Shown one piece after another: positions 27,201 to 60,630 of a stretch of DNA of 62,352 bases. A model generated the notes under the pieces. The model was not told the origin of the DNA. It made no database searches and worked only from the letters and a program-made list of their open reading frames with translations. This stretch comes from a virus. Numbering within the stretch: position 1 is the stretch's first letter; the number at the start of each line of letters is the position of its first letter. The position numbers and the translations under genes were made by a program. The stretch covers positions 1 to 62,352 of the IMG/VR virus record IMGVR_UViG_3300020021_000009; one strand, 5' to 3'.

Positions 27201-27519
27201 CGCTGTCCGGGCCGTCGCCCACAGACCAGACCCAGGAGGCCGCGTCACCGTCACCGTTCCAGTGCGCCACCCCGAAGACGTCGGCCTGGACCGGGGCCGT
27301 GCCGTCGAACGAATCGTGCAGCCCCTGGACAAGGTCCGCACGCATGTCCGGGGTCCAGGCAGTGGCGTCCGGACCCAGGTAGAACAGGGTGCAGTGGAGT
27401 TCGCCCGGTGCCTCACCCCCGTCCACGGCCAGCGCCTTGGCGTCGGCGACCGTGGGCATGAGAGCGATCATGCAGCCGGACGTGTGGCTGCCGTCGGCCG
27501 CCGCCAGGAGGTCAGGCAC
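24244..27519 (-). CDS. 2H phosphoesterase-like + MuF + capsid maturation protease fusion, 1091 aa
   Basis: GTG in an 8-nt overlap with the portal. Residues 1-160 contain the LigT/2H-like motif HCTLFYLG (His42, Thr44) and a second His at 140 in WVAHVCAQY, where the canonical HxT/S is HxC. Residues about 330-460 match the MuF head-morphogenesis pattern (CRPCREVDGKQFP, CLGGDRCRGL). A KAHLRGHYHSLG segment follows. Residues about 690-900 resemble a prohead protease (LAVEGVTTGDGREF, LRWNIEDSHGG). Fusion of MuF and protease is known in actinophages. The 2H-like head is unusual and could act on RNA or cyclic nucleotides, by inference only. Confidence 0.75.
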   Translation of the reverse strand: MPDLLAAADGSHTSGCMIALMPTVADAKALAVDGGEAPGELHCTLFYLGPDATAWTPDMRADLVQGLHDSFDGTAPVQADVFGVAHWNGDGDAASWVWSVGDGPDSGQSLDAAHLGAVMALEDMHDQPELSAQHTPWVAHVCAQYTDDQTMVPAMEQRLGPVTFDRVRVSFGDQNTDIPLDGSTDPDDSPMTASGTVLRRKLTPVELASTCDFSAHQAGWTSAVDASVHDWAQVSAGWRNEIRQQMLTADTAPELSSLSVSTAHGASLLYARMEAAAMAAGKAQQAEAERQGATVPHWDLGADAVTAAGLSGRRLLRNVASVTSDVLGSRMVNAARQRARSLFGVYDGIRLASEVDQYLADLSDAFTREQLGASVTAAQNAGRMAVLDVAPKADYYSSEILDGNTCRPCREVDGKQFPTLLLAGEAYPTEGYRDCLGGDRCRGLVIAVWGSGITAAAEERTDDMATATELGGKPSKGTKRDRRLEENPATATNEPCPTCPDDEHFGASTSKDTGPWDGAASRFDDKQYQTASAACDPGDGTVKERCFLPHHEPTGALNVAGLHAAASRAGSLKGHSPEAVSRAKAHLRGHYHSLGEDVPPSLTASATAAAVTCPDGWGPDPAGDGCVPAGWSPGDKQPACPPGMVRDPDGDGCVTAAAATVEQLAAQTAGPDTLIAPDAPTAPWSGVLAVEGVTTGDGREFAPDALTWSELPVPLRWNIEDSHGGEPRTVAVNVGRIDTIERVGSELRATGVLDLSDPNGVAARDKIAGNFLRGVSIDADSIGDAQVEYVWPEGDGDGGDDDDLFAMLFASPEKMIFHGGRIRAATLCDIPAFAEAYIALTDDTGAVTAGGAMDAQAWADAQPVTGQRAVTAHGAPAAPPAAWFADPGLSLPTPITVDAGGRVYGHAATWSTCHIGLGGECVKPPRENEHAYYLTGELSTEDGRSVSVGQITLGTGHAALSAGHQAAAAHYDNTGTAIADVAVGNDAHGIWVAGSVRAGADPGLVSELRASGQVSGDWRRIGGKLRLVGLLAVNVPGFPVPRPALLTASGQPVALVAAGAPTMAPGMSQADRDRAEMRERMAVLARRVEGE

Positions 27520-30885: not shown

Positions 30886-30899
30886 CTTAATCAAATCAG
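30886..30899 (-). promoter_or_regulatory. AT-rich promoter/operator within the end of terL, site 4
   Basis: Minus strand CTGATTTGATTAAG, a variant of the palindromic motif flanked by GGCT/AGCC. It includes the TGA stop of terL and lies 41 nt before the holin-like start. It may drive the lysis/portal genes separately. Confidence 0.55.
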
Positions 30900-33100
30900 C
30901 CCACGACGCGGTCCATGGCCTTGAAGCCCTGGCCCACCCGGATGCCCCCCTTGCCGCCGCGCAGGTGCGCCACACCGAGCCCGATGGCGTCCCAGACCAT
31001 GGCGTCCAGCCGGTCCGGGGACCAGTCCAGTTCCGGGGTCCAGGTGGTCAGCTGGTCCTCCAGCTGCTCGAAGCGACCGGCGAAGTGCCACCGCCCCTGC
31101 TGGGTGAGCGCGGACACCGGTTCCGCCCGCACCCGCTTGCCCCGGGTCGCGGTCACCACCTTGATCCTGATCGGTACGCCCATGTCCTCCGCCGCGGACC
31201 GGATCGTGGACACGGCCATGTCACGGCCGTAGTTCAGTTCCACGGTGATGTCCGCCGCGTCGTGGTCGATCGCGGCCTGGACCGCGCGCCGGCCCCACCC
31301 GTCCGGCTTGAGATGACAGGTGTAGTCCGCGAGCACGAACCCGTGCACCGTCTTGCGTCCGCCCTCCTCAGGCGTCCACAGCGCGCTCTTCCCGGCGACG
31401 ACGATGCCCTGCTCCCCGGCACCGCCCGACGGGTCCACGCCCACCGTGACGCGGGTCAGCGGGGGCAGGTCCGCGGGGTCGATGCGCACGGCACTGATCA
31501 TGTCGCGGGTCCACAGCGCGTTCTCGTCCTCCTCCATGATCAGGCCCAGCAGCTCCTGGTCGCCCTTGCGCGTCCCCTTGTACGCGTCCTCCAGGGCGTC
31601 GCGGATCTCCTGCGGGAGGTGGGGGTTGTCGTACGTCGTGGCCCGGGTCACGACCGTGTTCCGGAACTCGCCGCGTTCCAGGCGCTTGATCAGTCCGCGC
31701 GGCTTCGGCGTGGTGGACCCGATCCAGCGCGGATGCGGACCGGACCGGAGTCCGAACCGCATCTGGTCCCACGCCTCGTCCATGAACCGCCAGGCCGCGA
31801 TCTCCTCCAACCAGGCCAGGCAGTTGGAGACCAGGAGATCGTCAGCGAAGAACTCATGATCATGCTCAACGGTCAGGTCGTAGACCCTTGCCACGCTGTG
31901 CGTAGGCGTGGACCGAAGTACACCGCCGCGAACAGGTGCTGGTGGGGTTGCGGGCAGGGCACTCGAACATGTTGCCGCACACGCGGCACACCCGTTGCTC
32001 CCGTGTTCGTGACGCATGGTCACGACAGGCAGCGGAGCAGAACCGGACCACGGCAGCGGCTGCGCGGCTACGGAACGGCCGGGAGCAGCGTTCACAGGTG
32101 AAGTCCCGCCAGACACGTGCCGCGACGGACGCCCGACCGCCCTTGGCGTGCCAGTCCTCCCCGCGCTCCGCTCCGTGCTCTGCCCAGTGCTCACCGGGTG
32201 GGAGCAGCACAAAGTTGGAGACCTGGTTGTCCCGCTTGTCGTGGTTCTTGTGGTGCACCTGCATGCCGTCCGGGATGTCCCCGACTTCCTTGGTCCACAT
32301 CCATCGGTGCAGCAGCCCCCGGTTGCTGTTCCGGTAGTACGGATCCCGCCCGTTCGCGTTCCACCGGACCCCGTCGTACGTGATCGGCTCACCGTATCGT
32401 CCCATGACAACACTGTATCAGTCGTCTGGACGAACGAGGCTTGTTGCCACCCGCGCTGCTCCGTCCAGACCTCATGGTCCGGAGTCAGCCAGGTGGACCC
32501 CGCATCGTGGTCGAACCGCCACACCGGGCGCACCCCGTTGTCCCAGACCTGGAGAACAAACCTCAGTCCGTTTCTGGTCCACACCCGGTCACCGGGTCGC
32601 ACCTGCTCAATCGGTACCGGACCGCGCTCCGTACGGATCATGGACCCTTCACGCACGCAACGGTTACCGCCCGAGCGCAGCCGCTCCGTGTCGTCCATGC
32701 TGTTGGCTCCGAACAGCTTCGCCTCCGAGCCGTTGGGCCAGCGGACCACGGTGCCTCCCTGGACCGTGACCATGCGCGCGGTCGGGTCGTGGGCCATGAT
32801 CCCGGACGGCCCGGTGACGCAGGAGGTGGCAGCGTCGCCCAGGGTGGGGGCGATGATCCCGACCCAGTGCGGAGCCCGGCCGGGCAGGCACGGCGGTCCG
32901 TTGACGTGGTCCACGATGTACTTCGCGCAGGCGTCCGTCTTGCCCGCCCCGCGCCCCGCGAGCAGCAGCCACCCGTACCAGTCGCCCGGCGGCGGGACCT
33001 GGTGGGGGCGCGGTGTCCAGCGCGGGGACAGCAGGTCGGCCAGGCGTGAGGAGAACACGTCCTTCGCCTTGGCCGCCACCTCGCGCTGATCACGGTTCAT
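30896..33100 (-). CDS. terL: Terminase large subunit, interrupted by an intein (734-aa precursor)
   Basis: ATG (MNRDQREVA); a GTG ten codons upstream is possible. Walker A is GRGAGKT at residues about 49-55. The intein runs from Cys148 to Asn426, with Cys427 as +1 extein residue, splitting the Walker B region GGNR|CLAWLEEIAAW. After splicing the enzyme would be about 455 aa, a normal TerL length, with nuclease motifs VGVDPSGGAGEQG, ADITVELNYGRD and LDWSPDRLDAMVWDA. It cuts and pumps phage DNA into proheads. It must be spliced to work, because the intein is in the ATPase centre. Confidence 0.9.
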   Translation of the reverse strand: MNRDQREVAAKAKDVFSSRLADLLSPRWTPRPHQVPPPGDWYGWLLLAGRGAGKTDACAKYIVDHVNGPPCLPGRAPHWVGIIAPTLGDAATSCVTGPSGIMAHDPTARMVTVQGGTVVRWPNGSEAKLFGANSMDDTERLRSGGNRCVREGSMIRTERGPVPIEQVRPGDRVWTRNGLRFVLQVWDNGVRPVWRFDHDAGSTWLTPDHEVWTEQRGWQQASFVQTTDTVLSWDDTVSRSRTTGSGGTRTGGIRTTGTATGGCCTDGCGPRKSGTSRTACRCTTRTTTSGTTRSPTLCCSHPVSTGQSTERSAGRTGTPRAVGRPSRHVSGGTSPVNAAPGRSVAAQPLPWSGSAPLPVVTMRHEHGSNGCAACAATCSSALPATPPAPVRGGVLRSTPTHSVARVYDLTVEHDHEFFADDLLVSNCLAWLEEIAAWRFMDEAWDQMRFGLRSGPHPRWIGSTTPKPRGLIKRLERGEFRNTVVTRATTYDNPHLPQEIRDALEDAYKGTRKGDQELLGLIMEEDENALWTRDMISAVRIDPADLPPLTRVTVGVDPSGGAGEQGIVVAGKSALWTPEEGGRKTVHGFVLADYTCHLKPDGWGRRAVQAAIDHDAADITVELNYGRDMAVSTIRSAAEDMGVPIRIKVVTATRGKRVRAEPVSALTQQGRWHFAGRFEQLEDQLTTWTPELDWSPDRLDAMVWDAIGLGVAHLRGGKGGIRVGQGFKAMDRVVG
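31823..32659 (-). other. TerL intein (279 aa) with a foreign-frame HNH gene in its middle
   Basis: N-terminal splicing block starts CVREGSMIRTERGPVPIEQV; block B is STWLTPDHEVWT (TxxH). Block F/G is VYDLTVEHDHEFFADDLLVSN followed by Cys. Penultimate residue is Ser rather than the usual His. Between blocks B and F the intein frame stays open for about 170 codons but reads as Arg/Thr/Gly/Ser-rich low-complexity sequence, the shadow of the HNH gene in another frame. Confidence 0.9.
31866..32405 (-). CDS. HNH homing-type endonuclease nested out of frame in the TerL intein, 179 aa
   Basis: ATG start; a TGA lies five codons upstream in the same frame, so it is a bounded gene, not an extension. HNH core is VHHKNHDKRDNQVSNFVLL (residues 50-68). 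Two zinc-finger-like pairs follow: CERC(104-107)/CSAAC(123-127) and CRVC(140-143)/CSRRC(158-162). It lies in the -1 frame relative to terL. No strong Shine-Dalgarno is seen. Its last about 11 codons overlap the conserved intein C-terminal block, so that stretch is genuinely dual-coding. Probable role: intein homing into uninterrupted terL genes. Confidence 0.9.
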   Translation of the reverse strand: MGRYGEPITYDGVRWNANGRDPYYRNSNRGLLHRWMWTKEVGDIPDGMQVHHKNHDKRDNQVSNFVLLPPGEHWAEHGAERGEDWHAKGGRASVAARVWRDFTCERCSRPFRSRAAAAVVRFCSAACRDHASRTREQRVCRVCGNMFECPARNPTSTCSRRCTSVHAYAQRGKGLRPDR

Positions 33101-33133
33101 GGGGACAGGATGCCCGACCCCGGACAGCACGAC

Positions 33134-37330: not shown

Positions 37331-37605
37331 AGTGTCGCCACCTTTCCGTTCACTCGGATAGCCCTGGCTACTTTGACGGGGTCCCATTCCGCCAATGAGC
37401 GATCTTTCTTTCCGGAATTGCATGGCCGACAGGCTGGGACCAGGTTGCTTTCATGCTCCCAACCACCACGGGCCAGGGGGATGACATGGTCCACCGTCTC
37501 CGACGGGCCACCGCAGTACACACACTCCCCCGTCGCCCGGATGCCGGTCCACAGACACCGGGCACAGACCGCCCGGACACAGAACCGGCACCCGACAGAG
37601 ATCAT
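37321..37605 (-). CDS. HNH endonuclease, 94 aa
   Basis: ATG overlapping the polymerase stop (ATGA), with GAGGTGAG 7 nt upstream. Zinc/HNH pattern CVYCGG (28-33), VDHVIPLARGG (His40), EHESNLVPACRPC (His51, Asn54) and CNSGKK: complete McrA-like domain. Possible roles are cos/branch processing, like HNH proteins near terminases, or homing. Confidence 0.85.
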   Translation of the reverse strand: MISVGCRFCVRAVCARCLWTGIRATGECVYCGGPSETVDHVIPLARGGWEHESNLVPACRPCNSGKKDRSLAEWDPVKVARAIRVNGKVATLCV

Positions 37606-39332
37606 TTGGCGCTCACCTCGCCCCACGACCGTCCCGGCTTCGAGACGTCGCAGGTGATCGGAACGCCGCGCCACTCCGTGGTGAACGCGGCCCGGACGAC
37701 TTCCGCGACCTCCGCCGCGTCCTCCTTCGGGACGGACAGCAGGATCTCGTCATGGATGACGGCCCGCAGGTACGGCCGGAAACTGTCCGGCAGCCGCAGC
37801 AGCGCGTCGCACAGCAGGTCCCGCGCCGTGCCCTGGCCCATCAGCGCGGGGGCTTGGGTGTAGGTCCGCTCCGGGTCGCAGCGCATGAGCCGGCCGAAAC
37901 CGTTGTCCAGCAGCTCCCCGGCGTCGGCCAGGGTCCTCACCTCGTCGGTCCACTGGGCCTTGCGCGGGAACATCCGCGCCATGCCGTCGAAGAACGCGTT
38001 CACCAGTTCCGGGTCGTGCCCGTCCGCGATCATCCGCTTGGGGCCCATGCCGTAGTTGGCTCCGTGGCCCAGTGGCTTGGCCGCCTCCCGGAAGGACGCG
38101 TCGCCGAAGATCTGCACCGCCAGTTCCGTGTGCGCGTCCCGTCCGGGCAAAAACAGGTCCATGTAGTTCCGGTCCTGGCAGTGCCCTGCCACGCCCCGCA
38201 TGTCGATCTGGGACAGGTCGCAGGACAGCAGCACGTGGCCCGCCTCCGGCAGGAAGACGTCCCGCTCCACGTGCCTGCCGCCGCGCTTGCCGTAGACCGT
38301 CAGCCCCGGCGCGGTGAACGACCACCGCCCCGACGCCTGCCCCATGTTGATCTTCGGGTGGACCCGGTCCCCCTCCAGGTGGTTGGCCGCCGTCTGGTAG
38401 ACCGTGCGGATCGTGGTCACCACACCCATCAGGCCCAGGACCTCCCGCAGCTCCGGCGGGCACTTCGGGTGGGCGGACAGGCCCTTGAGCACCTCCGCCG
38501 CCGTGGACAGCCCCGTCCGGGTGCGCGGGGGTGACAGGACGCCGTAGCGGGCGTACACGGCCTCCAGCCAGTCCGCCCCCTCCCGGGTGGCCAACGGGGA
38601 CGAGAACGGCTCCCAGACGGGCCTCCTGGCCGCGCCACGGCCCCGCAGGACGTCCCGGCCCAGCGGGAGCCCGTGCACGGCGTGCAGGCGCTCCAGGGCC
38701 TCCGTCTTGCGCGCCTCGCCCTGCGCGATCCGCTCGCGCAGCAGCGGCACGTCCACCCGGAACCCGTTCAGCGTCATCCGCCCGGCAAGGGACGCCAGGC
38801 GGTGCTCCCGGGCCCCGTACTCCGTCATCGGGTAGCGGGCCGCCACGGCGCGCGTCGCCTCCACGTCGGCCCGCAGGTAGGCCGCGTACCGGGAGTCGCC
38901 CACCGGGATGGCGTCGTACCCCCCGAACTCGCGCTTGAGCGATGCCAGGCCGCCGTCCCCGGTGACCTTCCCGGCGACGCCCAGCTTCTGCGCGACGTGG
39001 TCCAGGTCGTACCGGTCCGTGCTGCCGCCCGTGTCCCGGGCACGCGGCGGGTCCGCCAGCCGGGCCAGGATCAGGGTGTCCACCGCCTTGGCGGACAGCG
39101 CCTCCCAGTCGGCCCCGTGGTGGTACGCCAGCGCCAGCAGGTCGAAGCCCAGGACGTTGTGGCCCACCACGGCACCCGCCCGGTCCAGGAAGGCGGTGAG
39201 CACCCCCATGTCGGCGGTCACCCCGACCGGGCCGTCCGGCCCCGCCGCGCCGGCCAGCCGCAGGAAGTCCGGACGGTGAAACAGGTCGTCGGCGGAGCAG
39301 GTCTCCAGGTCGAAGTACGCGGTCGTCACCAT
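37602..39332 (-). CDS. Family A DNA polymerase, 576 aa
   Basis: ATG (alternative GTG one codon on). N-terminal 3'-5' exonuclease: DLETCS (Asp8, Glu10), GHNVLGFD (62), YLRADVEAT. Polymerase motifs: A DLSQIDMRG (Asp372), B R415-EAAK-PLGHGANYG, C VIHDEILLS (Asp528, Glu529). The residue matching E. coli Phe762 appears to be His423 (GHG), a feature common to many phage polymerases. At 576 aa it lacks the 5' nuclease domain. It replicates phage DNA. Confidence 0.9.
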   Translation of the reverse strand: MVTTAYFDLETCSADDLFHRPDFLRLAGAAGPDGPVGVTADMGVLTAFLDRAGAVVGHNVLGFDLLALAYHHGADWEALSAKAVDTLILARLADPPRARDTGGSTDRYDLDHVAQKLGVAGKVTGDGGLASLKREFGGYDAIPVGDSRYAAYLRADVEATRAVAARYPMTEYGAREHRLASLAGRMTLNGFRVDVPLLRERIAQGEARKTEALERLHAVHGLPLGRDVLRGRGAARRPVWEPFSSPLATREGADWLEAVYARYGVLSPPRTRTGLSTAAEVLKGLSAHPKCPPELREVLGLMGVVTTIRTVYQTAANHLEGDRVHPKINMGQASGRWSFTAPGLTVYGKRGGRHVERDVFLPEAGHVLLSCDLSQIDMRGVAGHCQDRNYMDLFLPGRDAHTELAVQIFGDASFREAAKPLGHGANYGMGPKRMIADGHDPELVNAFFDGMARMFPRKAQWTDEVRTLADAGELLDNGFGRLMRCDPERTYTQAPALMGQGTARDLLCDALLRLPDSFRPYLRAVIHDEILLSVPKEDAAEVAEVVRAAFTTEWRGVPITCDVSKPGRSWGEVSAK

Positions 39333-39333
39333 G

Positions 39334-41985
39334 TCACGCGCTCCAGTCGAAGTCGTCGGTCCCGGCCGCCGGATCGGCGGGGGCGAACGGGTTGGGCGCT
39401 CCCGTCACGTCGTCGGTCTGCACCGACGGCAGGGCACCAGGCCCCGCGCCTGCGCTTCCGCCAACTGGACCGCCAGCACCTGCCGACCACTGCGGAACCG
39501 GCCCATCGACGTGCACTCCCGCATCCGGTGGTACACGGTCACGGTCGGGACCTGCGGTACGAACACGTTCACCGTCACTCTCCGTATAAGTAGTCAACGG
39601 GTCGGTCCGCGGCTCGGGGACCGGCGCGGGGCCGTCGAACGGGTCCCAGACGGCAGGTGTGGGCGGTGTGGGGAGTGTGGGTTGTTCGCAATCCTGTCTA
39701 TGAGTCGGGACTGTATCCATGATCTTTTTCTCTTCAGTCCCAACCCTCACATAGGGTTGTATGGCACTCACACTAGTCACACTTCGCAGGTCAGAACCCA
39801 CACCAAGATCTCCGGCACCCACACCACTACCCACACTCCGCAGGTCAGAGCCCACACCGTGATCGTTTGACCCCCCCGTCGTGGTGACCGCCACATCCCG
39901 GTTACGGGTGGTTTGTCCGATTTCCTTGTCCTCCCCCGTGCGGGTTGTCACGTTCATGCCGACGTTTTTGTTCCGGTGGGTCAGCCGTACCTCACCCACA
40001 CCCGGCAGCGTCCGCAGCCGCTCTGCGAACTTCGGCCGGGACATGGCTTTGGCCGTACCGTCGTCCTCTGCCCAGGACCGGAACGCCACGTAGAGTGACG
40101 TGATCGTGTCCCCCTGGTCGGCCCCCACCGTCCGTCCCACGGCGTCCGGGTGCACGTCGCACCGGGTGGCCGCCCATCGGGCCACGCGGTCCGAGCGCGT
40201 CTCGAACTCCTGGCGCACGTCCGCGTCCTGCGGCAGGTAGCCGCCACGCCCGTGGAACCCCTGCCAGGCCCCCACCCAGCGGACCAGGATCCCGGGGAGC
40301 TCGCGCATCATGGAGTCCTCGATCGTCGGGTCCTCGCGTCCGGCGAAGCTGAACGGGAACCTGAACGGGGAGATCCGGTTGGTGTACGCGTCGGACGTCT
40401 CGCTGACCGTCGGCGGCTCGTTGGCGGAGAACGCGAACAGTGCCTGGTTGGTGAACCGGAAGGGCAGCCCGTACTTGCGGTCCGCCTCCACGACGTCCTC
40501 GCCGGACATCATCTTGAACAGGGACATGTCCGTCAGGTGCGCGCTGGACAGGTCCGCCGCGATGTTGGCCATCTTCTGATAGAGCGCGGCGGCCATGAAC
40601 CTGTTGTCGGCCAACTGGTGCAGCGACACCCCCGAGATGTTCTCAGGGCCCGCGACAGCACCCAGGATGCGCAGGGCGGTGCTCTTGCCGGAGTGGGAGG
40701 GGCCGAACGCGAACAACGCCTTGGCAGGGGTGCGGGAGGGGTCCAGCATCGTGGACGCCACCTCCTCCAGCTCACGCCCCTGGTCCGGGATCACCTGCTG
40801 GAGCCATGCCTCGTAATGGGGCGCCGTGGCACCAGGGTCCCAGGGCACGGGGATCTGCTGTGCGGACAGGTACTGCGGGCCGTGCGGCAGCAGCTCCCCC
40901 GTGCGCAGGTCCAGCATCCCGTTCGCGCAGTTCAGCACCGGTTCCGTTGCCCGGTCGCCCAGTCGCAGCCCGCGCCGGGTCAGTTCGCCCACGAGGTACT
41001 CCTCCACCGTGGACCGGTGGGCGGGCCGGAAGTCCTCGCCCAGCATGTCGCTGATCCGGTCGATCAGCGGCTCCCGGCCGCGGTCCACGCGGAACGCCCC
41101 GTCGCGGTACAGCGCGATCATTGATCCCTTGCCGAGCGCCGCAGGCTGGCCCTCCAGCACGGCGAGTGCCGTGGTCCGGGCGAGCAGGCCCTTCTCCGTC
41201 ATGTAGGGGGACGCGGCCTTGCGGCCCGGGGGCCGGCCCAGCTTCGCCACGGCCAGCTTCGCCAGCTGCTCCAGGAAGGACGTCCGCCCGCCCGCTGCGC
41301 GCCGTCCCAGGACGTCGTCCAGGCCGTCGGTCGACCTGGCCCCCGCGATCTTGGCGAAGCGCACGCCCTCCGCCCCTTCGAGCTCCAACGCCTCCTGGAG
41401 CCTGACCGCCGCGTCGTGGACGTTGCGGTTGGTGGCCACGTCGCCGTCGAAGACCACCACCACCTCCCGGCCGGCCGCCCAGGACAGGTCCGTGCCCACC
41501 CAGGAGTCACAGCCGGGTACCGCCACCACGCCCCAGGCCACCGGGGCCCACACGGCCGCCGCGATCCCCTGCTTGGTGCCCTCCACGAACAGGTACGGGT
41601 CCTCGCCCCCGGCGGGTGCGCGCAGGTGGTTCAGGAAGGTTCCGCAGCCCTTCGGCAGGACGTACTTGTGCGCCTCCCCCCGGTCGTCCACCACGGGTGT
41701 GTCGGGGCGGAACTGGACCACGGTCCGGTCCTGGTCGCGCCACTCGAACAGCAGCCCGGGCCCGCGGCCGGGCCCCTGCACCCACCAGCGGGCGATCTCG
41801 TCCGGCACGTGGTCCGGATGGGCCACCGCCCGCACGCCGTACTCCAGCGCCTTGTCCACCGGGATGCCCCCGGCCTCCAGCGCCTCCAGTCCGGCCGGGC
41901 TGAACGCGTTCCCCAGCGCGTCCACGGCGCGTGTCTGCGCGTCCTCGGCATGTCCGTTCAGCGACGGGTCCACGTCTGTGGTCAT
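39334..41985 (-). CDS. Primase-helicase (TOPRIM-like + SF3/D5-type), 883 aa
   Basis: ATG with GAGAGGGGG upstream. TOPRIM-like primase part at residues about 130-190 (FVEGTKQG, VVVVFDGDVATN). D5-type region at about 300-400. SF3 helicase Walker A GPSHSGKST (428-436), Walker B NIAADLS (474-480) and FAFSANEPP (sensor). The C-terminal 200 aa are low complexity. Initiates and unwinds for replication, beside the DNA polymerase. Its 3' end carries direct repeats that may be an origin. Confidence 0.85.
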   Translation of the reverse strand: MTTDVDPSLNGHAEDAQTRAVDALGNAFSPAGLEALEAGGIPVDKALEYGVRAVAHPDHVPDEIARWWVQGPGRGPGLLFEWRDQDRTVVQFRPDTPVVDDRGEAHKYVLPKGCGTFLNHLRAPAGGEDPYLFVEGTKQGIAAAVWAPVAWGVVAVPGCDSWVGTDLSWAAGREVVVVFDGDVATNRNVHDAAVRLQEALELEGAEGVRFAKIAGARSTDGLDDVLGRRAAGGRTSFLEQLAKLAVAKLGRPPGRKAASPYMTEKGLLARTTALAVLEGQPAALGKGSMIALYRDGAFRVDRGREPLIDRISDMLGEDFRPAHRSTVEEYLVGELTRRGLRLGDRATEPVLNCANGMLDLRTGELLPHGPQYLSAQQIPVPWDPGATAPHYEAWLQQVIPDQGRELEEVASTMLDPSRTPAKALFAFGPSHSGKSTALRILGAVAGPENISGVSLHQLADNRFMAAALYQKMANIAADLSSAHLTDMSLFKMMSGEDVVEADRKYGLPFRFTNQALFAFSANEPPTVSETSDAYTNRISPFRFPFSFAGREDPTIEDSMMRELPGILVRWVGAWQGFHGRGGYLPQDADVRQEFETRSDRVARWAATRCDVHPDAVGRTVGADQGDTITSLYVAFRSWAEDDGTAKAMSRPKFAERLRTLPGVGEVRLTHRNKNVGMNVTTRTGEDKEIGQTTRNRDVAVTTTGGSNDHGVGSDLRSVGSGVGAGDLGVGSDLRSVTSVSAIQPYVRVGTEEKKIMDTVPTHRQDCEQPTLPTPPTPAVWDPFDGPAPVPEPRTDPLTTYTESDGERVRTAGPDRDRVPPDAGVHVDGPVPQWSAGAGGPVGGSAGAGPGALPSVQTDDVTGAPNPFAPADPAAGTDDFDWSA
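39778..39864 (-). repeat. Two 33-bp direct repeats in the 3' end of the primase gene
   Basis: Copies at 39778-39810 and 39832-39864 agree at 29 of 33 positions, centred on CGCAGGTCAGAxCCCACACC, 54 nt apart (in frame). The region is richer in CAC/GTG than its surroundings and less GC-rich. Replication-protein genes often carry iteron origins, so an origin is possible. Confidence 0.6.
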
Positions 41986-49249: not shown

Positions 49250-49316
49250 CGTACGGTACCTCAACGGAAGAGGCCCTGGGAACAGGGGGATGCGGGTTCG
49301 AATCCCGTCCGTACAC
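49250..49316 (+). ncRNA. tRNA-like element with an anticodon arm lacking three loop bases
   Basis: Acceptor strands CGTACGG and CCGTACA pair (6 bp, first pair mismatched). D arm CCTC-AACGGAA-GAGG and T arm GCGGG-TTCGAAT-CCCGT are canonical. The anticodon arm folds as CCCTG-GGAA-CAGGG, five pairs closed by a four-base GNRA-type loop, instead of a seven-base loop. There is no anticodon. Either a degenerate tRNA or a tRNA mimic. Length 67 nt versus about 73 for a normal tRNA. Confidence 0.6.
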
Positions 49317-49417: not shown

Positions 49418-49489
49418 GCGCCCCCAGCTCAGCAACAGATCAACCGCCTCTTAAGCGGTCGGTCGTCGGTCCGAATCCGACGGGGCGCA
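49418..49489 (+). tRNA. tRNA-Lys (CTT)
   Basis: Acceptor GCGCCCC/GGGGCGC, D stem GCTC/GATC (one mismatch), anticodon arm ACCGC-CTCTTAA-GCGGT with anticodon CTT, T arm GTCGG-TCCGAAT-CCGAC, discriminator A. No CCA encoded. Complete. Confidence 0.9.
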
Positions 49490-49581
49490 CTGCGGTACCG
49501 GGTCCTGCGGGGCCTCACTCCCCCGGGGCACGGGCCCGGTACCGTCCCGATGGCAATGACCAAAGACAAGAGGAGACACCC

Positions 49582-50915: not shown

Positions 50916-51205
50916 AGCGTCTTCCGACCCGGGCGGAGGTGTCCGCCTTCCTGGCCGCCAACGCGTCTCACTACGACGACGGTCGCTGGGGTGTTCCGTC
51001 GGTCTCCGGTGGGTTCACGCCCGTGTTCGAGCCGGCCGCTCTCAAGCTGGCGGAGGTGCACCTGATCGTGGGCACCCCGCTGCTGGACACGGTCACGTCC
51101 GACTTCGCGCTGATCCTGGCCCGCCGCCTGGTCGCCCTGGAACAGGCCGTGGCCGAGTGCCGTGCTCCGGTGTCGGCTCCGGAGCCGGGGGTGGTGCCGG
51201 TATGA
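50912..51205 (+). CDS. Hypothetical protein, 97 aa
   Basis: GTG in an overlap with the previous stop. Small alpha/beta protein with YDDGRWGVPSVSGGFTPVFE and a helical middle. Unknown; coupled to the following glycosyltransferase by an ATGA overlap. Confidence 0.65.
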   Translation: MKRLPTRAEVSAFLAANASHYDDGRWGVPSVSGGFTPVFEPAALKLAEVHLIVGTPLLDTVTSDFALILARRLVALEQAVAECRAPVSAPEPGVVPV

Positions 51206-51873
51206 GGACACGGCCCACGATCTCCGTCTGCATCCCCACCCTCCCCGGCCGCGAGACCGAGCTCCGCCGCGCGGTGGCCTCCGTGCTCCGCCAGAAGGAC
51301 TCCGGCTGGGGCCCGCTGGAGATCCTGGTGGAGCGGGACCCGGACCGCAACGGGGCGGCGGCCACCCGCAACAAGCTGCTCGCCCGGTCCCGGGGGGACG
51401 TCATCGCCTGGCTGGACGACGACGACTGGATGGGTGACCGCCACCTGTCCGTCTGCGGCCGGATCCTGCACGACCGCCCGGACGTGGACCTGGTGTACCC
51501 GTCTCCGATCATGGAGCCGCGCCAGGACGACGGCACGTTCCGCCGGGCACCGGTCTGCCCGGCCGCCGTCACCCATCAGGGTGTGTTCCCCACCGAGCCG
51601 TGGGGCCTGCGCTGGTGTGACGAGTTCGCGGCCCACATCCGCCGGCTCGGCTCGTTCATCCCGATGACGCACCTGGTCCGCCGGGACGTGCTGGTGGACG
51701 CGGGCGGGTTCCCGGAGGGGCGCACACTCCCCGACGGCCGGTACCAGGGGGAGGATGAGCGGATGCTGCTCGCCCTGCTGGACCGGGGCGCCGTGTTCGA
51801 ACACGTGGACCGGGCGACGTGGCACTGGTACGTCAACCCGAAGAGCACAGCGGGGAAGGGGCGGGCACAATGA
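51202..51873 (+). CDS. Glycosyltransferase family 2-like (GT-A), 223 aa
   Basis: ATG in an ATGA overlap. N-terminal ISVCIPTLPGRETELRRAVA is the nucleotide-sugar fold; GRNGAAATRNKLLARSRGDV and the metal site WLDDDDWMG (DxD) follow. It lacks a C-terminal membrane anchor, so it is cytoplasmic. Probably transfers a nucleotide-activated sugar to a phage target (protein or DNA base). Related enzymes lie at 57241 and 60043. Confidence 0.8.
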   Translation: MRTRPTISVCIPTLPGRETELRRAVASVLRQKDSGWGPLEILVERDPDRNGAAATRNKLLARSRGDVIAWLDDDDWMGDRHLSVCGRILHDRPDVDLVYPSPIMEPRQDDGTFRRAPVCPAAVTHQGVFPTEPWGLRWCDEFAAHIRRLGSFIPMTHLVRRDVLVDAGGFPEGRTLPDGRYQGEDERMLLALLDRGAVFEHVDRATWHWYVNPKSTAGKGRAQ

Positions 51874-52486: not shown

Positions 52487-52617
52487 GCCATGTCCGGATG
52501 TCCGTGTCCGTCCACCTGTCCGTCCACCTGTCCGTCCGCCTGTCCGTCCGCCTGTCCGGATGTCCGTGTCCGTCCGACTGTCCGCTTGACGCTGTCCGCC
52601 GGACATGGGACAGTGGC

Positions 52618-52666: not shown

Positions 52667-53512
52667 ATGGACGCGGACAGCGGACAGAGCGGACAGGACA
52701 CCCGGACACCGGACATGCCCGTCTGGGTGTCCTGGTTCACGGACGGCGGACGCCCGGTCGTGGCCGTACTGGTCATGATCATGTGCGCACCCGGGGAGCA
52801 CCACCTGGCTGCCATGGCCGGCTGGGAGGACTGGCTGGCCTGGGGCATGCCCGGCTGCCTGGTCATCTACACGGGCATCGCCGCGGTCGTGGCCACCAAG
52901 CGGGCCAAGGGCACGCCCGGCAAGCGCACGGCCGTGGTGGGGGCGATCCTGTCCCTGCTGCTGGCCATGAGCGCGCAACCGATCAGCCACCTGTTCGTGA
53001 CCGGGATCTGGCACGGCGACCCCTGGCCCCTGGTCGTGGTCGTCTCCTGTATCCCGCCCATGGTCCTCGGACACCTGCTCCACCTGGCCGCCGGGGGATC
53101 TGTCCGGTCCGTCCGGCGGACAGTGGCGGACACCGGACAGGCTGACGTCCCGGACAGTGCGGACGCACCGCTGCGGACAGTGGCGGACACGGACGGACAC
53201 CGGGCCGTGCGGACGGACATCGGACGGACGGACACCTGGATCATCGTGCCGGACACGGACACGGACACGGACACGGACACGGATACGGTGTCCGGACACT
53301 TTGCCGAACCGGTCGTCGTGTCCGTCCCGGTCCGCCGTTCCGTTGTCCGGCAGATGGCGTCCGGCTCCATCCCGTCCGTCGTCAAGGACATCCTCACGGA
53401 CAGCCCGGACGCCACGAACGCCGATGTCCGGGACATGGTCCTGAACCGGCTCGGACCGGACACCAAGACAGACAGCATTAGCAAGGCGATCCGCCGCGTG
53501 CGCGCGGCCTAA
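52667..53512 (+). CDS. DUF2637-like membrane protein, SpdB-type, 281 aa
   Basis: ATG. Four hydrophobic helices at about residues 28-46, 56-74, 88-106 and 119-140. A long acidic Asp-Thr-rich linker follows, with a (TD)6-type run near residue 200 arising from the GGACAC DNA repeat, and a small helical C-terminal domain (SVVKDILTDSPDATNADVRD). The topology is that of DUF2637 membrane proteins of Streptomyces plasmids, commonly near traB and spd genes. Possible role: intermycelial spread or TraB assembly. Confidence 0.7.
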   Translation: MDADSGQSGQDTRTPDMPVWVSWFTDGGRPVVAVLVMIMCAPGEHHLAAMAGWEDWLAWGMPGCLVIYTGIAAVVATKRAKGTPGKRTAVVGAILSLLLAMSAQPISHLFVTGIWHGDPWPLVVVVSCIPPMVLGHLLHLAAGGSVRSVRRTVADTGQADVPDSADAPLRTVADTDGHRAVRTDIGRTDTWIIVPDTDTDTDTDTDTVSGHFAEPVVVSVPVRRSVVRQMASGSIPSVVKDILTDSPDATNADVRDMVLNRLGPDTKTDSISKAIRRVRAA

Positions 53513-53526
53513 GGAGGGACACGGAC

Positions 53527-54003
53527 ATGAGCACTACCCAGGTTGGAACGTCCGCGAGCAACGCCCAACGGGAGCCCGCACGACCGTCCCACAAGCCGAC
53601 CGTCGGACGGACGGGGACGGGATCGGACAGGATCGACGCCCTGGTCCGGGCGCTGGACGATATTCAGATCGAGGACCAGCACGACCTCCACGCGATCCTG
53701 GAGGCGTTCCGCAAGCTCGGTCACCGCCTCGCGATGGAGTCCATGCTGACCGGGTCCGAACTGGAGGCCGGTCTCAAGCAGGCGGCCCGCGGCGGCAGCG
53801 TCTTCGGGACCGTCGGGTTCGGCACCCACCGGAAGATCAGGCGCACGCTCAAGGCGCTGCGGACCATGGCCGACGGATTCGCGGGGGCGAGCGCCAGCGC
53901 GGTCGTCGCGTGGCGCGCGTTCGAGAAGGATTTCGCCGAAGACCTGGCACCCACCCGCACCAGGCCCGCTCCCCGCAAGGGGTTCCGGATCAACCCGAAC
54001 TGA
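53527..54003 (+). CDS. Hypothetical plasmid-module protein, 158 aa
   Basis: ATG after AAGGAGGGACACGGAC. Mostly helical, soluble; middle helices ALDDIQIEDQHDLHAILEAF and a basic C-terminus (TRTRPAPRKGFRINPN). Lies between the membrane protein and the TraB-like motor, so it is probably a part of that module. Confidence 0.65.
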   Translation: MSTTQVGTSASNAQREPARPSHKPTVGRTGTGSDRIDALVRALDDIQIEDQHDLHAILEAFRKLGHRLAMESMLTGSELEAGLKQAARGGSVFGTVGFGTHRKIRRTLKALRTMADGFAGASASAVVAWRAFEKDFAEDLAPTRTRPAPRKGFRINPN

Positions 54004-56083: not shown

Positions 56084-56246
56084 TGTCACGGGGCGTCACA
56101 GCCCCGTGTCACGGACGGTACCAACCGGTACAGATCAGCTGTAACAGGGACGCTGTCACGGGGCAGTGTCACGGCATGTCACGGGGCTCCGACCTTAGGG
56201 AGTCCTCGCGTGACGTCCCGCCCTGGACACGGGAACGATGTCACGG
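56084..56246 (+). repeat. Six direct TGTCACGG repeats, clt-like locus
   Basis: Copies of TGTCACGG at 56084, 56107, 56154, 56167, 56177 and 56239, all same orientation, spacings 23, 47, 13, 10 and 62 bp. They occupy the gap directly after the TraB-like gene. In Streptomyces plasmids the cis-acting clt locus beside traB contains 8-bp TraB recognition sequences in direct repeats. The match in repeat length, orientation and position is close; the sequence itself is not a known one to me. Confidence 0.85.
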
Positions 56247-56256
56247 AGGACTGATC

Positions 56257-56451
56257 ATGAGGAACACGATCGCGGCGGTGCACGCGGTGGCCATCCTTGT
56301 CTGGGTGCTGGTCGTCGGTACGGGACGGCTCACGGTGCCCGGCTTCCTGCTCTGGCTCGCGCTCTGCGCGGCCGGGGACCAGGCCCTGGTCTGGGCGCTC
56401 TGGCTCGGCTCCGGCCGCAAGGGTCCGTCCCCGAACCGGCGCTGGCGCTGA
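56257..56451 (+). CDS. Small membrane protein, two TM, 64 aa
   Basis: ATG after GGAGGACTGATC, in the last TGTCACGG copy's downstream. Two hydrophobic helices (residues about 5-22 and 28-48) and a basic tail (GRKGPSPNRRWR). Stop overlaps the next ATG (TGATG). Part of the plasmid-like module; possibly a spread (Spd-type) protein. Confidence 0.65.
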   Translation: MRNTIAAVHAVAILVWVLVVGTGRLTVPGFLLWLALCAAGDQALVWALWLGSGRKGPSPNRRWR

Positions 56452-56571: not shown

Positions 56572-57009
56572 ATGGAGCGTGACCCGACCTACGGGGAGGA
56601 GATCGCACGGCGCTGGCCGGACGTCGCCCCGTACCTGCCGCAGCGCAGCGGGGCGGGCGGGGACCAGGTGCACATCCACCTGCACCAGGCACCCGCCGTC
56701 CCGGATCAGAAGGTGTCGGCGGAGCAGCGGGGTTGGGACCTGCTGCACGCGATGGCGCCGTACCTGCTGATCGCGGGCCTGCTCGCGGTCATCGTCTGCG
56801 GGTCGCTGGCGATCCTGGCCTACGCGTTCACCATGGTCATGGCCATGCTGCTGGCGCTGGTCGCGAGTGCGGAGGCCCTGGCAGGGGCGGCGGTGGCGCT
56901 GGTCGTCGCCGTGGCCCTGGCCGCCGCGGGCATCGGCCACCTGGTCCACGGCGGGGGCACCACCGTGACCGGCAACCGGAACACGGTCAACGAGAGAAAG
57001 AGGAACTGA
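56572..57009 (+). CDS. SpdD-like membrane protein, 145 aa
   Basis: ATG after GAGAGGACGCACC. N-terminal soluble part with the His-rich stretch QVHIHLHQAP, then long hydrophobic helices (residues about 60-84 and 95-122). SpdD-type spread proteins of Streptomyces plasmids have a His/Pro-rich N-terminus followed by TM segments. A Gly/Thr-rich end (GGGTTVTGNRNTVNERKRN) follows. Likely part of the TraB-associated membrane set. Confidence 0.65.
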   Translation: MERDPTYGEEIARRWPDVAPYLPQRSGAGGDQVHIHLHQAPAVPDQKVSAEQRGWDLLHAMAPYLLIAGLLAVIVCGSLAILAYAFTMVMAMLLALVASAEALAGAAVALVVAVALAAAGIGHLVHGGGTTVTGNRNTVNERKRN

Positions 57010-57010
57010 C

Positions 57011-57244
57011 ATGACATGGGTGACGAGCGGGGACAGTGCGGCGGTCAACCTGGACCGGGTGGCCGTCCTCGGAGTGCGGAACACGGGCGAGGACGAGTAC
57101 CAGATCGGTGTCTTCGCCAGTGAGGACGACGTGGCCGGCGACGCACTGCTGTACCTGACCGGGACGTGGGCCACGCTGGCGGACGCGCAGACGGTACTGA
57201 CCCGTCTCGTCAACGCGGTGGACCCGTCCGCGTACGCCTCATGA
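57011..57244 (+). CDS. Hypothetical protein, 77 aa
   Basis: ATG after GAGAAAGAGGAACTGAC. Small beta/alpha protein with an acidic middle (NTGEDEYQIGVFASEDD). Coupled to the next glycosyltransferase by an overlap (ATGA). Unknown. Confidence 0.65.
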   Translation: MTWVTSGDSAAVNLDRVAVLGVRNTGEDEYQIGVFASEDDVAGDALLYLTGTWATLADAQTVLTRLVNAVDPSAYAS

Positions 57245-57921
57245 TCGACGTGCTGGTCCCGTCCAGGGGCCGTCCGGAGATGCTGGTCCGGTCCCTGCAC
57301 TCCCTGTTCACCACGGCAGCGGACCCGCGCAGCGTCCGTTGCCACGTGGCCGTGGACAACGACGACCGGGCCACGGAGGACGTGGTCCGGTACCTGGCAG
57401 GGAGCCTGGAACCGGGGGCGGTCACCCTGACCGTCTCCGAGCGGCACGGCTACGCAGGACTGCACCACTACTACAACACCCTGGCCATGCGCGGCAGCGG
57501 TGACTGGCTGCTGCTGTGGAACGACGACGCGTTCATGCAGACCACCACCTGGGACATGGCCCTGGACGTCCACATGCCTGCGGGCGTCCTGGTGGCCGAC
57601 CTCCAGTCGGCCCACTCCCCCGGTCTGTGCTGCTTCCCGGCCGTGCGCCGGGAGGCGGTGGAGGCGCTGGGGTTCTTCGCCACGGACAACCCGCACTGCG
57701 ACACGCTGTGGCAGGACATCGGCCGGGCCACGGGCACGATCGCGGCAGTCCCGGTCCACGTGCTCCACGACCGTCCCGACCTGACCGGCCGGGCACCCGA
57801 CGCCACCTGGACCGAGGGCCGCGCCGGTACCCACGGCGCGGACTACGGGGGCTCCCCCCACCAGGCCCAGGTACTGCACGCCATAGCGACCATCAGGAAG
57901 GCATTCCCGTGCGCGCTCTGA
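57241..57921 (+). CDS. Glyc​osyltransferase-like (GT-A), 226 aa
   Basis: ATG in an ATGA overlap. IDVLVPSRGRPEMLVRSLHS is a GT-A nucleotide fold; LLLWNDDAFM has the DxD-like acidic pair (Asp-Asp). C-terminal half contains CCFPAVRREAVEAL. Related to the 51202 and 60043 products. It heads the sugar cassette. Confidence 0.75.
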   Translation: MIDVLVPSRGRPEMLVRSLHSLFTTAADPRSVRCHVAVDNDDRATEDVVRYLAGSLEPGAVTLTVSERHGYAGLHHYYNTLAMRGSGDWLLLWNDDAFMQTTTWDMALDVHMPAGVLVADLQSAHSPGLCCFPAVRREAVEALGFFATDNPHCDTLWQDIGRATGTIAAVPVHVLHDRPDLTGRAPDATWTEGRAGTHGADYGGSPHQAQVLHAIATIRKAFPCAL

Positions 57922-58826
57922 TCTTCGGCGGTTCCGGATTCGTCGGCCGCCATCTGGCCGCGACCCTGACCGGGGGCGAGCACCGGGTCAGGGTGTTCGA
58001 CAGGGCCGACCACCCGGGGGACGACGTCCGGGACCCGGACGCGGTCACCGACGTGGTGCGCCGGTTCGAGCCGGACCAGGTCTACCACCTGGCCGCGATC
58101 TCCTGGCCCGGCGAGTCCCTGTCCGACCCCCGGCACACGATGGACGTCAACGTGACCGGGACGCTCAACGTCCTGGAGGCGGTCCGGGTCACCGGCTCCC
58201 GCGCGCGCGTGCTGATCGCGGGCACCTCCGAGGAGTACGGCTACGGGGAGCGGCCCGGATCGAACGAGATCACGGAGGGGACGGCCTGCGCACCGACCAC
58301 GGTCTACGGGGTGTCCAAGCTGGCGGCCACCACCCTGGGCCAGGTCTACGCCCAGCGGTACGGCATGCACGTCGTGAGTACCCGGGCCTGGAACCACACC
58401 GGTCCCGGCCGGCAGGCGGTCAACGCAGAGTCCGCGTTCGCCTGCCGCATCGTCGCGGTGGAGCGGGGCGAGGCGGACAGTGTTCCGCACGGGGACCTGT
58501 CCGCCGTCCGGAACTGGACCGACGCCCGGGACGTGGTCCGCGCGTACCGGCGGCTGCTGGACCCGAAGGGGGAGGCGACCCCGGGGATCTACAACGTGTG
58601 CTCGGAGGAGAACCTGCCCCTGTCCGAAATCATGGACCTGCTGTTGGAGCAGTCCTCCGTCGGTCCTGCCGACCTCCGGCTGGACCCCGCCCTGGTTTTC
58701 CCGTCCCCGTGGGGTATGTGGCCGCAGCCGTCTGCGGAGAAACTGCGGGAGATCACCGGATGGACCCCGAAGATCCCGCTGGACCAGACCCTGTCCGAAC
58801 TGCTCACCTACTGGAGGAACCGATGA
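57909..58826 (+). CDS. NAD-dependent epimerase/dehydratase (sugar), 305 aa
   Basis: GTG overlapping the previous end by 13 nt. Rossmann GGSGFVG (7-13), catalytic YGVSK (Tyr133, Lys137) preceded by GTSEEYGYG (Ser/Thr of the triad), and RAWNHTGPG (159-167), the signature of GDP-mannose 4,6-dehydratase/reductase-like SDR enzymes. Converts a nucleotide sugar (probably GDP- or CDP-linked) to a deoxy or epimerised form. Supplies substrate to the neighbouring transferases. Confidence 0.85.
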   Translation: MRALIFGGSGFVGRHLAATLTGGEHRVRVFDRADHPGDDVRDPDAVTDVVRRFEPDQVYHLAAISWPGESLSDPRHTMDVNVTGTLNVLEAVRVTGSRARVLIAGTSEEYGYGERPGSNEITEGTACAPTTVYGVSKLAATTLGQVYAQRYGMHVVSTRAWNHTGPGRQAVNAESAFACRIVAVERGEADSVPHGDLSAVRNWTDARDVVRAYRRLLDPKGEATPGIYNVCSEENLPLSEIMDLLLEQSSVGPADLRLDPALVFPSPWGMWPQPSAEKLREITGWTPKIPLDQTLSELLTYWRNR

Positions 58827-60046
58827 TCTGCCGGAGCTGCGGGAGTGGGTCCCTGACCCGGGTCCTGGACCTGGGACTGCACCGCCTTCCCGACTTCCCG
58901 ACACCGCAGGACTACGCGGCCGACACCGGGCAGACCGACGTCCACCCGTTGTCCCTGGTGATCTGCGCCGGCTGCACCCTGGTCCAGTTGGAGCAGACGA
59001 CACCGCGGGGGCTGCTCTACCACGACCGCTACGGGTTCCGGTCGGGGACCAACGAGGCAGTCCGCGCGGACCTGACCGACGTCGTGAACTACGCCCGGAC
59101 CGTGGTCCCGGACGCGAGAACCTGGCTGGACATCGCGTGCAACGACGGCACGCTGCTGTCCAACGTGCCGCCCACAGTGTGGCGGGTCGGGGTGGACCCC
59201 CTGTCCCAGCTCGCCCCGCAGGCGCGCCGGTTCGCGGACCGGGTCGTGTCCGACTACTTCTCCCCGCGGCTGCGGCACGTCGGCAACACGGCGTTCGACG
59301 TGGTCACGTCGGTGTCCATGTTCTACGACCTGGACGACCCGAACGCGTTCGCGGCCGGGGTGGCGGAGGTGCTCGCCCCCGGCGGGGCATGGGTGGTCCA
59401 GCAGAACTACGCGCTGGACATGGTCCGGTCACTGGCGGTGGACAACATCTGCCACGAGCACGTGACGTACTGGTCCGTGACCAGCATGGTGCCGCTGCTG
59501 GCCGCCCACGGGCTGGAGGTCAACGACGTCACATACAGCACGGTCAACGGGGGCTGCTTCCGGACCCTGGTCTCCCACCGGGGGGAGCGGCCGGTCAGCG
59601 CGTCCGTGGCCGACGCGCTGGAGCGGGAGGCGGCGGCAGGGCTGTGGAACCCGGTGACGTGGGACACCTTCGGGGAGCGGGTCCGGGCGGAGCTCGGCAA
59701 GCTCCAGCGGTTCCTGTCCGCGGTCACCGACCGCGGCAAGACCGTGGACCTGTACGGGGCGAGCACCCGGGGCGGGACCTTCCTCCAGATGATCGGAGCA
59801 GGCCCGTCGGTCCTGCGACAGGCGGTGGAGCGGAGCCCGGACAAGGTGGGGAAGGTGATGGCGGCGACCGGCCTGCCGATCGTCGGCGAGGACGTGATGC
59901 GGGCGGACCCGCCGGACTACCTGTTGGTGTCGCCGTGGTTCTTCCGGGACGTGTTCCTGGTCCGCGAGCGCGCGTACCTGGAGGCGGGCGGGACCATGGT
60001 GTTCCCACTGCCGCAGTTCGACATGGTCACAGGGTCCCCGTCATGA
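58823..60046 (+). CDS. Sugar C-methyltransferase (TylCIII/Methyltransf_13-14 type), 407 aa
   Basis: ATG (or second ATG) in an overlap. N-terminal zinc site Cys3, Cys6, Cys48, Cys51 (MICRSCGSGS, CAGCTLVQ). SAM motif LDIACNDGTLL (residues 102-112). C-terminal third has VDLYGASTRGGTFLQMIG and LLVSPWFF, as in C-methyltransferases of deoxysugar pathways. Adds methyl to a keto-sugar made by the epimerase. Confidence 0.8.
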   Translation: MICRSCGSGSLTRVLDLGLHRLPDFPTPQDYAADTGQTDVHPLSLVICAGCTLVQLEQTTPRGLLYHDRYGFRSGTNEAVRADLTDVVNYARTVVPDARTWLDIACNDGTLLSNVPPTVWRVGVDPLSQLAPQARRFADRVVSDYFSPRLRHVGNTAFDVVTSVSMFYDLDDPNAFAAGVAEVLAPGGAWVVQQNYALDMVRSLAVDNICHEHVTYWSVTSMVPLLAAHGLEVNDVTYSTVNGGCFRTLVSHRGERPVSASVADALEREAAAGLWNPVTWDTFGERVRAELGKLQRFLSAVTDRGKTVDLYGASTRGGTFLQMIGAGPSVLRQAVERSPDKVGKVMAATGLPIVGEDVMRADPPDYLLVSPWFFRDVFLVRERAYLEAGGTMVFPLPQFDMVTGSPS

Positions 60047-60630
60047 GCCTGCGTCCCGGCGTCACGGTCGTCGTCCCGGTTCACCCGCCCCGGTTCCACA
60101 CCACGCTGGACCGGGCACTGCGCAGCGTGTGGGAGCAGCAGGCACCGCCGGCCGCGGTCGTCGTGGAGGTCGACCACTCGCATGCCGGGGCGGCCGTGAC
60201 CCGGAACCGGGGCCTGGCAGCAGTGCAGACGGAGTGGGTGGCGTTCCTGGACAGCGACGACCAGCTGAGACCGGCACACCTGCGGCGGTTGACCGAGCAC
60301 CAGCGGGACACGGGGGCTGACCTGGTCTACCCATGGTTCGACGTCGTGAACGGGTGGGACCCGTTCCCGGACCGGTTCGGGGTGCCGTTCGACCCGGCGG
60401 TGCTGCGGGAGCGGAACACGGTCCCGGTCACGGTGCTGGCGCGCACGTCCCTGATCAGGGACGTGGCCGGGGGCTTCCGCCCGAAGGGCCCGCCGGACAA
60501 CCCCTGCGACGACTGGGGCTGCTGGGATGAAATGGTCACAGCGGGGGCACAGTTCAGCCACCTGCCGGAGCGGACCTGGCTCTGGTGGTGGGCCACGGGC
60601 AACACGTCCGGACGCGGTGACGTCTGGTAG
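60043..60630 (+). CDS. Glycosyltransferase family 2-like, 195 aa
   Basis: ATG in an ATGA overlap. VTVVVPVHPPRFHTTLDRAL opens the GT-A fold, TRNRGLAA follows, and LDSDDQLRP is the DxD metal site (Asp-Ser-Asp-Asp). Ends WLWWWATGNTSGRGDVW, a hydrophobic tail. Likely the transferase acting on the product of the two upstream enzymes. Confidence 0.8.
   Translation: MSLRPGVTVVVPVHPPRFHTTLDRALRSVWEQQAPPAAVVVEVDHSHAGAAVTRNRGLAAVQTEWVAFLDSDDQLRPAHLRRLTEHQRDTGADLVYPWFDVVNGWDPFPDRFGVPFDPAVLRERNTVPVTVLARTSLIRDVAGGFRPKGPPDNPCDDWGCWDEMVTAGAQFSHLPERTWLWWWATGNTSGRGDVW

Follow-up and report, generated by a model that had tools for sequence, protein, structure and literature searches.

Six direct repeats of the 8-mer TGTCACGG lie immediately downstream of a traB-like gene in the genome of a tailed phage, and, judging from sequence, we consider it probable that this array is a TraB loading site (clt) carried by a phage. 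The window analyzed here is the IMG/VR virus record in full (62,352 bases), and its main features are collected in Table 1. We describe the array, its place and its conservation, together with the motor and winged-helix (wHTH) homology of the TraB-like protein encoded beside it; by analogy, the phage TraB/array pair probably works like the TraB/clt pairs of Streptomyces plasmids.

Table 1. Positions of the virion, replication and transfer-like features in the window, with the basis for each assignment.
Feature	Position	Strand	Basis
Capsid	22217-24004	-	PHROG match
Portal/protease-family ORF	24244-27519	-	PHROG match
Portal	27512-29308	-	PHROG match
DNA polymerase A	37602-39332	- (strand block)	Gene calls and family matches
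Primase, D5-type	39334-41985	- (strand block)	Gene calls and family matches
281-aa protein, several hydrophobic stretches	52667-53512	+	Gene call; family searches without convincing match
TraA-like protein, 158 aa, directly upstream of the traB-like gene	53527-54003	+	NCBIfam NF041213
TraB-like FtsK/SpoIIIE-type DNA translocase, 676 aa	54044-56074	+	NCBIfam NF041214, fold search, models
Candidate clt/TRS array, six TGTCACGG direct repeats	56084-56246	+	Clustering; same-gap arrays in relatives
Second conserved element TCCGACCTTAGGGAGTCC, between fifth and sixth repeat	56188-56205	+	Leave-one-out profile
64-aa hydrophobic protein, first gene past the array	56257-56451	+	Gene call; without family match
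145-aa protein with hydrophobic core	56572-57009	+	Gene call; family searches without convincing match

Judged by its gene content, the record is a tailed-phage genome and not a plasmid, since it encodes a capsid, a portal/protease-family ORF and a portal. Genes called with a simple codon-usage script fall into a minus-strand block (capsid, portal, tape measure, terminase, DNA polymerase A and D5-type primase) and a plus-strand block (helicase, glycosyltransferases and transfer-like genes), so that the virion genes by which a phage-plasmid is recognized are represented by capsid, portal, tape measure and terminase. No tyrosine integrase was found in the record, nor, in what is possibly an incomplete sequence, a ParA-type ATPase (PF13614). 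The same 12-bp tandem repeat (in the GACGCCGCTGGG register) occurs in the same orientation at both contig ends (1-126 and 62185-62339), which suggests that the genome is circular or permuted and was broken inside the repeat; when the ends are joined, no single frame runs through the junction, and the last bases resemble an inverted artefact. The terminase ORF (30896-33130, minus strand), in which a Hint domain precedes the N-terminal ATPase match, likely encodes a large terminase with an intein. Rfam places two consecutive tRNA genes at 49250-49316 and 49418-49490, of which ARAGORN calls the second only, as tRNA-Lys(ctt). The transfer module is bordered (51202-51873 and 57241-60630) by glycosyltransferase-like and epimerase-like genes and by C-methyltransferase genes, which are possible surface or virion modification cargo; the plasmid pS1D4-14.2 has similar genes near its traB.

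The initial annotation had described six same-orientation 8-mers right after the TraB-like gene, and all six are where it placed them, starting at 56084, 56107, 56154, 56167, 56177 and 56239 on the plus strand, with spacings of 23, 47, 13, 10 and 62 bp. The first copy begins 9 bp past the stop of the traB-like ORF (end at 56074), and the sixth overlaps the apparent Shine-Dalgarno of the next ORF (56257-56451); the several direct repeats beside traB that mark a clt are therefore present here in six copies. Elsewhere in the record, TGTCACGG occurs only at 1870 and 31219, both on the plus strand. The comparison of the genome-wide count with expectation, proposed in the same annotation, shows that the total is ordinary (8 copies against a shuffle mean of 5.13, with at least 8 in 19 of 100 shuffles) and that it is the clustering that goes far beyond chance: for six copies in 163 bp, an order-2 model gives a lambda of 0.006 and a Poisson P(≥6) of about 7e-17, a value uncorrected for how word and place were selected. 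When all 8-mers were scanned for copies within 200 bp, TGTCACGG scored 6, and the only others to score at least 6 came from the 12-bp tandem repeat of low complexity that is found at either end of the contig. A record-wide scan likewise found no 200-bp stretch clear of the array with more than two copies of TGTCA/TGACA. A degenerate 12-bp tandem, TGTCCGTCCGCC, is also present at 52505-52598, before the 281-aa gene, and its word differs from that of the array. Outside the array, TGTCA is scarce (36 observed vs 87 expected, which places it in the bottom four of 754 pentamers); we dropped avoidance of this core as a meaningful signal because the controls are low too, with ratios of 0.56 in the pS1D4-14.2 stretch, 0.63 in phage ZL12 and 0.70 in six relatives.

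The protein encoded upstream of the array aligns with positions 2-635 of the 639-position NCBIfam plasmid_TraB profile (NF041214) at 330 bits (E 2.9e-98). This falls short of the curated cut-off of 800 bits for equivalog membership, and we therefore call the protein, a diverged homologue, TraB-like and not TraB. It has an FtsK/SpoIIIE-type RecA motor, the first 16 matches of a fold search being FtsK motor chains (best E 5.5e-15); the Pfam FtsK_SpoIIIE match lies below its cut-off, as does that of pWTY27 TraB. The structure model has four long predicted N-terminal helices (residues 16-125), candidates for the membrane helices of a TraB-type translocase, the motor at residues ~240-520, a low-confidence linker and a predicted C-terminal wHTH at 598-665, whose third helix (636-648) is the recognition helix. 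A separate model of the C-terminal 87 residues (mean pLDDT 84.9) contains three helices and two short strands, and its matches include winged-helix proteins at Z 6.5-7.8; FtsK gamma was absent among the matches listed, which has no bearing either way. Searching 50,697 phage records by tblastn with the TraB-like protein returned none at 1e-5, and at E ≤ 10 the best 20 of 47 phage records were weak, covering 24-30% of the query. Directly upstream, the TraA-like protein matches NF041213 weakly (E 5.6e-5, 23.3 bits, cut-off 80), and pairwise BLASTP against TraA of pWTY27 and pCQ4 gave nothing useful. The 281-aa protein possibly belongs to the transfer module; past the array, the 64-aa protein is comparable to spd genes by position only, and the 145-aa protein is spd-like by the same token of position.

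In the accessible parts of two reports, pSVH1 TraB is described as a hexameric, FtsK-like protein in which helix alpha3 of the C-terminal wHTH binds 8-bp repeats (PMC3583192, PMC4170104). By analogy with characterized TraB proteins of this kind, the C-terminal winged helix of the phage protein would read the TGTCA(CGG) repeats, and the repeated copies would be where TraB-like subunits come together as a hexameric FtsK-like ring located at the membrane. Such a ring could then pump unprocessed double-stranded phage DNA from the donor hypha into its neighbor, the substrate presumably being a circular or plasmid form of the phage.

For comparison, scans of viral contigs returned 2, 27 and 30 loci, mostly on the same contigs, and a scan of genome contigs returned 6. 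After removal of duplicates, the family set comprised 29 loci, namely this record and 28 others, including the plasmid pS1D4-14.2. The loci left out as duplicates (L014, L015, L027, L029, L030 and L035-L064 except L055, L058 and L061) were the same contigs or near-identical ones; also left out were L031 (frame broken at 289 aa), L034 (runs off its contig), L032 (not added) and the plasmid L072, which has array-like TGACA words only past the next small ORF. A TraB match was found in 51 plasmids, and the traB flank was fetched for 11 of them, pS1D4-14.2 included. Homologues of the capsid, 51-64% identical, are present in 20 of the 28 related records, as are homologues of the portal (21 of 29 with this phage), and the records that have no capsid/portal homologue are mostly the shorter ones, with G009 (88 kb) as an exception. 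Tyrosine integrases were found in 8 of the 29 records. Streptomyces isolates harbor three of the related records (pS1D4-14.2, S. africanus NRRL B-24243 and Streptomyces sp. NRRL S-455), which points to a streptomycete, or a close neighbor of one, as the probable host.

Arrays recur in the same gap across these loci, and we scored this gap over a stretch that begins 20 bp ahead of the traB stop and ends 190 bp past it. Among the 29 family gaps, TGTCA/TGACA occurs at least four times in 12 (this phage included), three times in 3, once in 6 and not at all in 8, against an expectation of 0.14-0.39 per gap; 14 family loci have at most one. At plasmid and chromosomal TraB loci, 8 of 10 gaps hold at least four copies (expected 0.07-0.22), and pSN22 and pJV1 have none, with GCACA-type words instead. 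A word-blind count against shuffles gave p ≤ 0.02 for some 5-mer or 6-mer in 19 of the 29 family loci, with no repeated word at this level in the fixed 200-bp stretch of the other 10. Several relatives that lack TGTCA have a different repeat in the gap, for example CTGATCAG in L023 and L025, CGTGATCA in five copies in L058 and CGTCCGGG in three copies in L010; TGATCA is the array word in L023, L025 and L058, TGTGA words occur in L024 (not significant) and L055, and TGTCAGAN, like CTGATCAG, is a word from the loci of relatives. In loci with at least four same-orientation copies, 53 of 89 spacings measure 10-13 bp, about one helical turn. The 8-bp repeat unit of the initial annotation thus stands for this phage, whose copies are identical over 8 bp, but not for its relatives, across which what is conserved is a core of 5-6 bp, while the ends vary and the spacings peak at 10-13 bp. 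In the orientation of its repeats relative to traB, this phage differs from most of the plasmids. In one relative (L009, 7897-8210), ~310 bp of extra sequence intervene between the traB stop and the TGTCA array and, judged by eye, resemble a portion of an HNH-type homing gene; the scored gap was shifted by 310 bp there. A Thermobispora bispora plasmid (L075) has a run of TGACACC at 10-13 bp spacing past its traB-like gene, after position 4369, and this run is a clean candidate clt.

Among the experimentally characterized systems consulted, the nearest to this array is the clt of pWTY27 (NC_013667), which has the same core. According to the accessible part of its description, this clt is a 175-bp segment, 16 bp of it inside the tra gene, that contains four TGACACC and is required for transfer, and pWTY27 TraA protects positions 9797-9849 and 9867-9897 from DNase (PMC3583192). 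Like the phage array, it consists of direct repeats at the 3' end of a traB-type gene; the reverse complement of TGACACC, GGTGTCA, contains the TGTCA core of the phage array, and pWTY27 TraB is 27% identical to the phage TraB-like protein over nearly the full length. The two differ in that the pWTY27 repeats have the opposite orientation and that those of the phage are identical over 8 bp, and pWTY27 is a 14-kb plasmid, with a single major capsid protein as the sole phage-like annotation in the 7.9 kb that was read. When mapped on the sequence, the first protected stretch corresponds to the TGACACC copies and the second to GTGTCACC plus CTGACAG, with CCCCTAGG in the unprotected gap between the footprints; by our own reading of the coordinates, phage and pWTY27 have the same order of array, CCTTAGG element and further repeat. 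The initial annotation had regarded the 8-mer as different from known TRS sequences. It is indeed unlike GACCCGGA, which we take to be the TRS of pSVH1, but it is not foreign to known clt loci, as pWTY27 shares its core.

Further plasmids combine a transfer module with such an array. The closest named relative, the linear plasmid pS1D4-14.2 (NZ_CP041606), encodes a TraB 40-41% identical to the phage protein and has in common with the phage a homologous capsid and portal and glycosyltransferase-type genes around traB; it differs in its size (98.8 kb), in the presence of ParA, ParB and an integrase, and in its array words, which are TGTCGG/CGTCAG and not TGTCACGG. In the Streptomyces phage-plasmids pCQ3 and pCQ4, a TGACA array and the element CTCCGGCCTTAGG come after annotated traA and traB genes, an arrangement like that of the phage, and pCQ4 has portal, capsid, tail and ParB genes too. 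The TraB proteins of these two elements are ~27% identical to the phage TraB-like protein over part of the length only, and pCQ4 TraB, unlike the phage protein, exceeds the curated TraB cut-off. The idea of a motor/substrate pair put forward in the initial annotation accordingly gains support from TraB homology, the FtsK-like motor, the predicted wHTH, the same-core arrays in relatives and the pWTY27 clt.

The second conserved element lies within the array. Its profile was seeded from the TCCGACCTTAGGGAGTCC of this phage and applied by leave-one-out, taking the best 300-bp stretch per locus. That stretch is the traB gap in 23 of the 29 family loci, the exceptions being L002, L007, L013, L018, L025 and L061, and in 1 of 7 other loci scored (pCQ4); the profile fails to score the pWTY27 element, as 45 of 47 other stretches were equally high. 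TCYGRCCTWAGR is conserved beside the repeats. Since the element is retained in loci with altered repeat words (L004, L010, L019, L023, L024 and L058), element and repeats seem to be read by different things. The element may be a promoter of the downstream genes, being promoter-like by position only, and no match to the sigma-70 consensus was found.

This arrangement raises the question of whether the repeats are operators of the small downstream genes, with copies on both sides of a promoter at TCYGRCCTWAGR bound by a repressor, which might be another phage regulator or the TraB wHTH itself. Such operators would be in keeping with the conserved, AT-richer element, which separates the last two repeats and precedes the next start codon by ~60 bp, and with the single repeat that several relatives have 59-73 bp beyond the array, near the ribosome-binding site of the next gene. 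Nevertheless, a sigma-70-type promoter is not recognized, and arrays of up to nine same-strand copies among the loci scored hold many for a simple operator. Moreover, the same-core repeats of pWTY27 lie, in the accessible part of the report, in a segment that is needed for transfer and is footprinted by the motor (PMC3583192). We therefore consider it unlikely that the repeats are operators in place of a clt, and an operator role could be additional to a clt.

Direct repeats around a promoter-like element also recall iteron-type parC sites, which have a promoter between their repeats, and some relatives are phage-plasmids with ParA or ParB, so that a centromere-like partition site has to be weighed as well. 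A ParA-type ATPase (PF13614) is found in only 5 of the 29 records, this phage not among them, and the ORFs beside the repeats have none of the partition ATPase or adaptor families of a ParR/parC system. The par genes of pS1D4-14.2 are far from its traB, and the arrays found follow traB-type genes in phages and plasmids alike, all of which makes a partition site very improbable. Least probable of all is a replication origin with iterons. Repeats of 7-8 bp do occur in Streptomyces plasmid origins, such as DR1/DR2 beside repAB in pWTY27, but, as far as the accessible part of that report describes them, these origin repeats are separate from the clt repeats (PMC3583192), and in this phage the primase and DNA polymerase lie ~14 kb or more from the array. 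A TraB loading site thus remains our preferred reading.

Covariation between the array words and the recognition helix is only suggestive. In partial Mantel tests (four predictors by four subsets), the recognition helix given the motor yielded a rho of 0.30 (p 0.001) in the family, 0.21 (p 0.03) at motor identity ≤ 60%, 0.17 (p 0.02) for all rows and 0.10 (p 0.13) for all rows at ≤ 60%; the TM part given the motor also had p 0.03-0.10, and the whole wHTH only p 0.09-0.32. For sliding 15-residue windows, family ranks (of 211) were 11-26 for starts at 631 or 634 and 4-8 for the window 628-642, and with all rows the starts at 631 or 634 ranked 5-61 of 210; windows in the linker (562-576) and TM part (82-96) mostly outrank those starting at 631 or 634. 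With a helix label of our own definition (R at 636, and not H, R, D or P at 635), an independent-pairs test on a motor-only tree of 39 rows gave 8 pairs (starred branches), 5 of them the same way and 2-3 opposite. This test was not significant (median p 0.73 for all rows, and 0.69 for the family, with only 7 pairs), and the SR/PR clade (L003, L012, L013, L016-L018, L020, L021 and L028) goes against the helix rule. We rejected covariation as proof of a code because the pairs test is null and other protein segments track the repeats as well; given these mixed tests, the code is kept as a hypothesis only.

Phage-plasmids with transfer genes are already known, pZL12 and pCQ4 among them, and the novelty of this system is limited accordingly. 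pZL12, or Streptomyces phage ZL12, is a tailed-phage plasmid with conjugal transfer on record, according to the accessible part of one report (PMC3583192). Its annotated Tra3-like gene appears to be of another type than the traB-like gene of our phage, and tblastn into the phage collection that includes pZL12 returned no match for the phage TraB (E ≤ 1e-5) or for pS1D4-14.2 TraB (E ≤ 1). The literature searched yielded no description of a phage-borne TraB clt, a weak negative given that most subscription papers lie outside it. What is new, as far as our searches show, is a phage lineage with this module and the diversity of its arrays.

If the pair works as proposed, this phage lineage could pass from hypha to hypha in Streptomyces without lysis, perhaps taking host DNA along. 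A simple rule for finding further clt loci would then follow, namely to scan the gap from traB to its neighboring gene for a word that recurs at 10-13 bp intervals beside TCYGRCCTWAGR, and because the words differ among arrays, TraB specificity, known from few plasmids, would become testable across many natural pairs. More tentatively, a whole lineage of actinobacterial tailed phages may spread both in virions and by TraB-driven double-stranded DNA conjugation, with docking repeats and recognition helix co-diversifying and each pump moving its own DNA only, a broader picture that we think possible but would not bet on. Were it true, these phages would embody a natural code in which helix residues 635 and 636, just before Trp638, correspond to TGTCA, TGTGA, TGATCA, CGTCCGG and other words.
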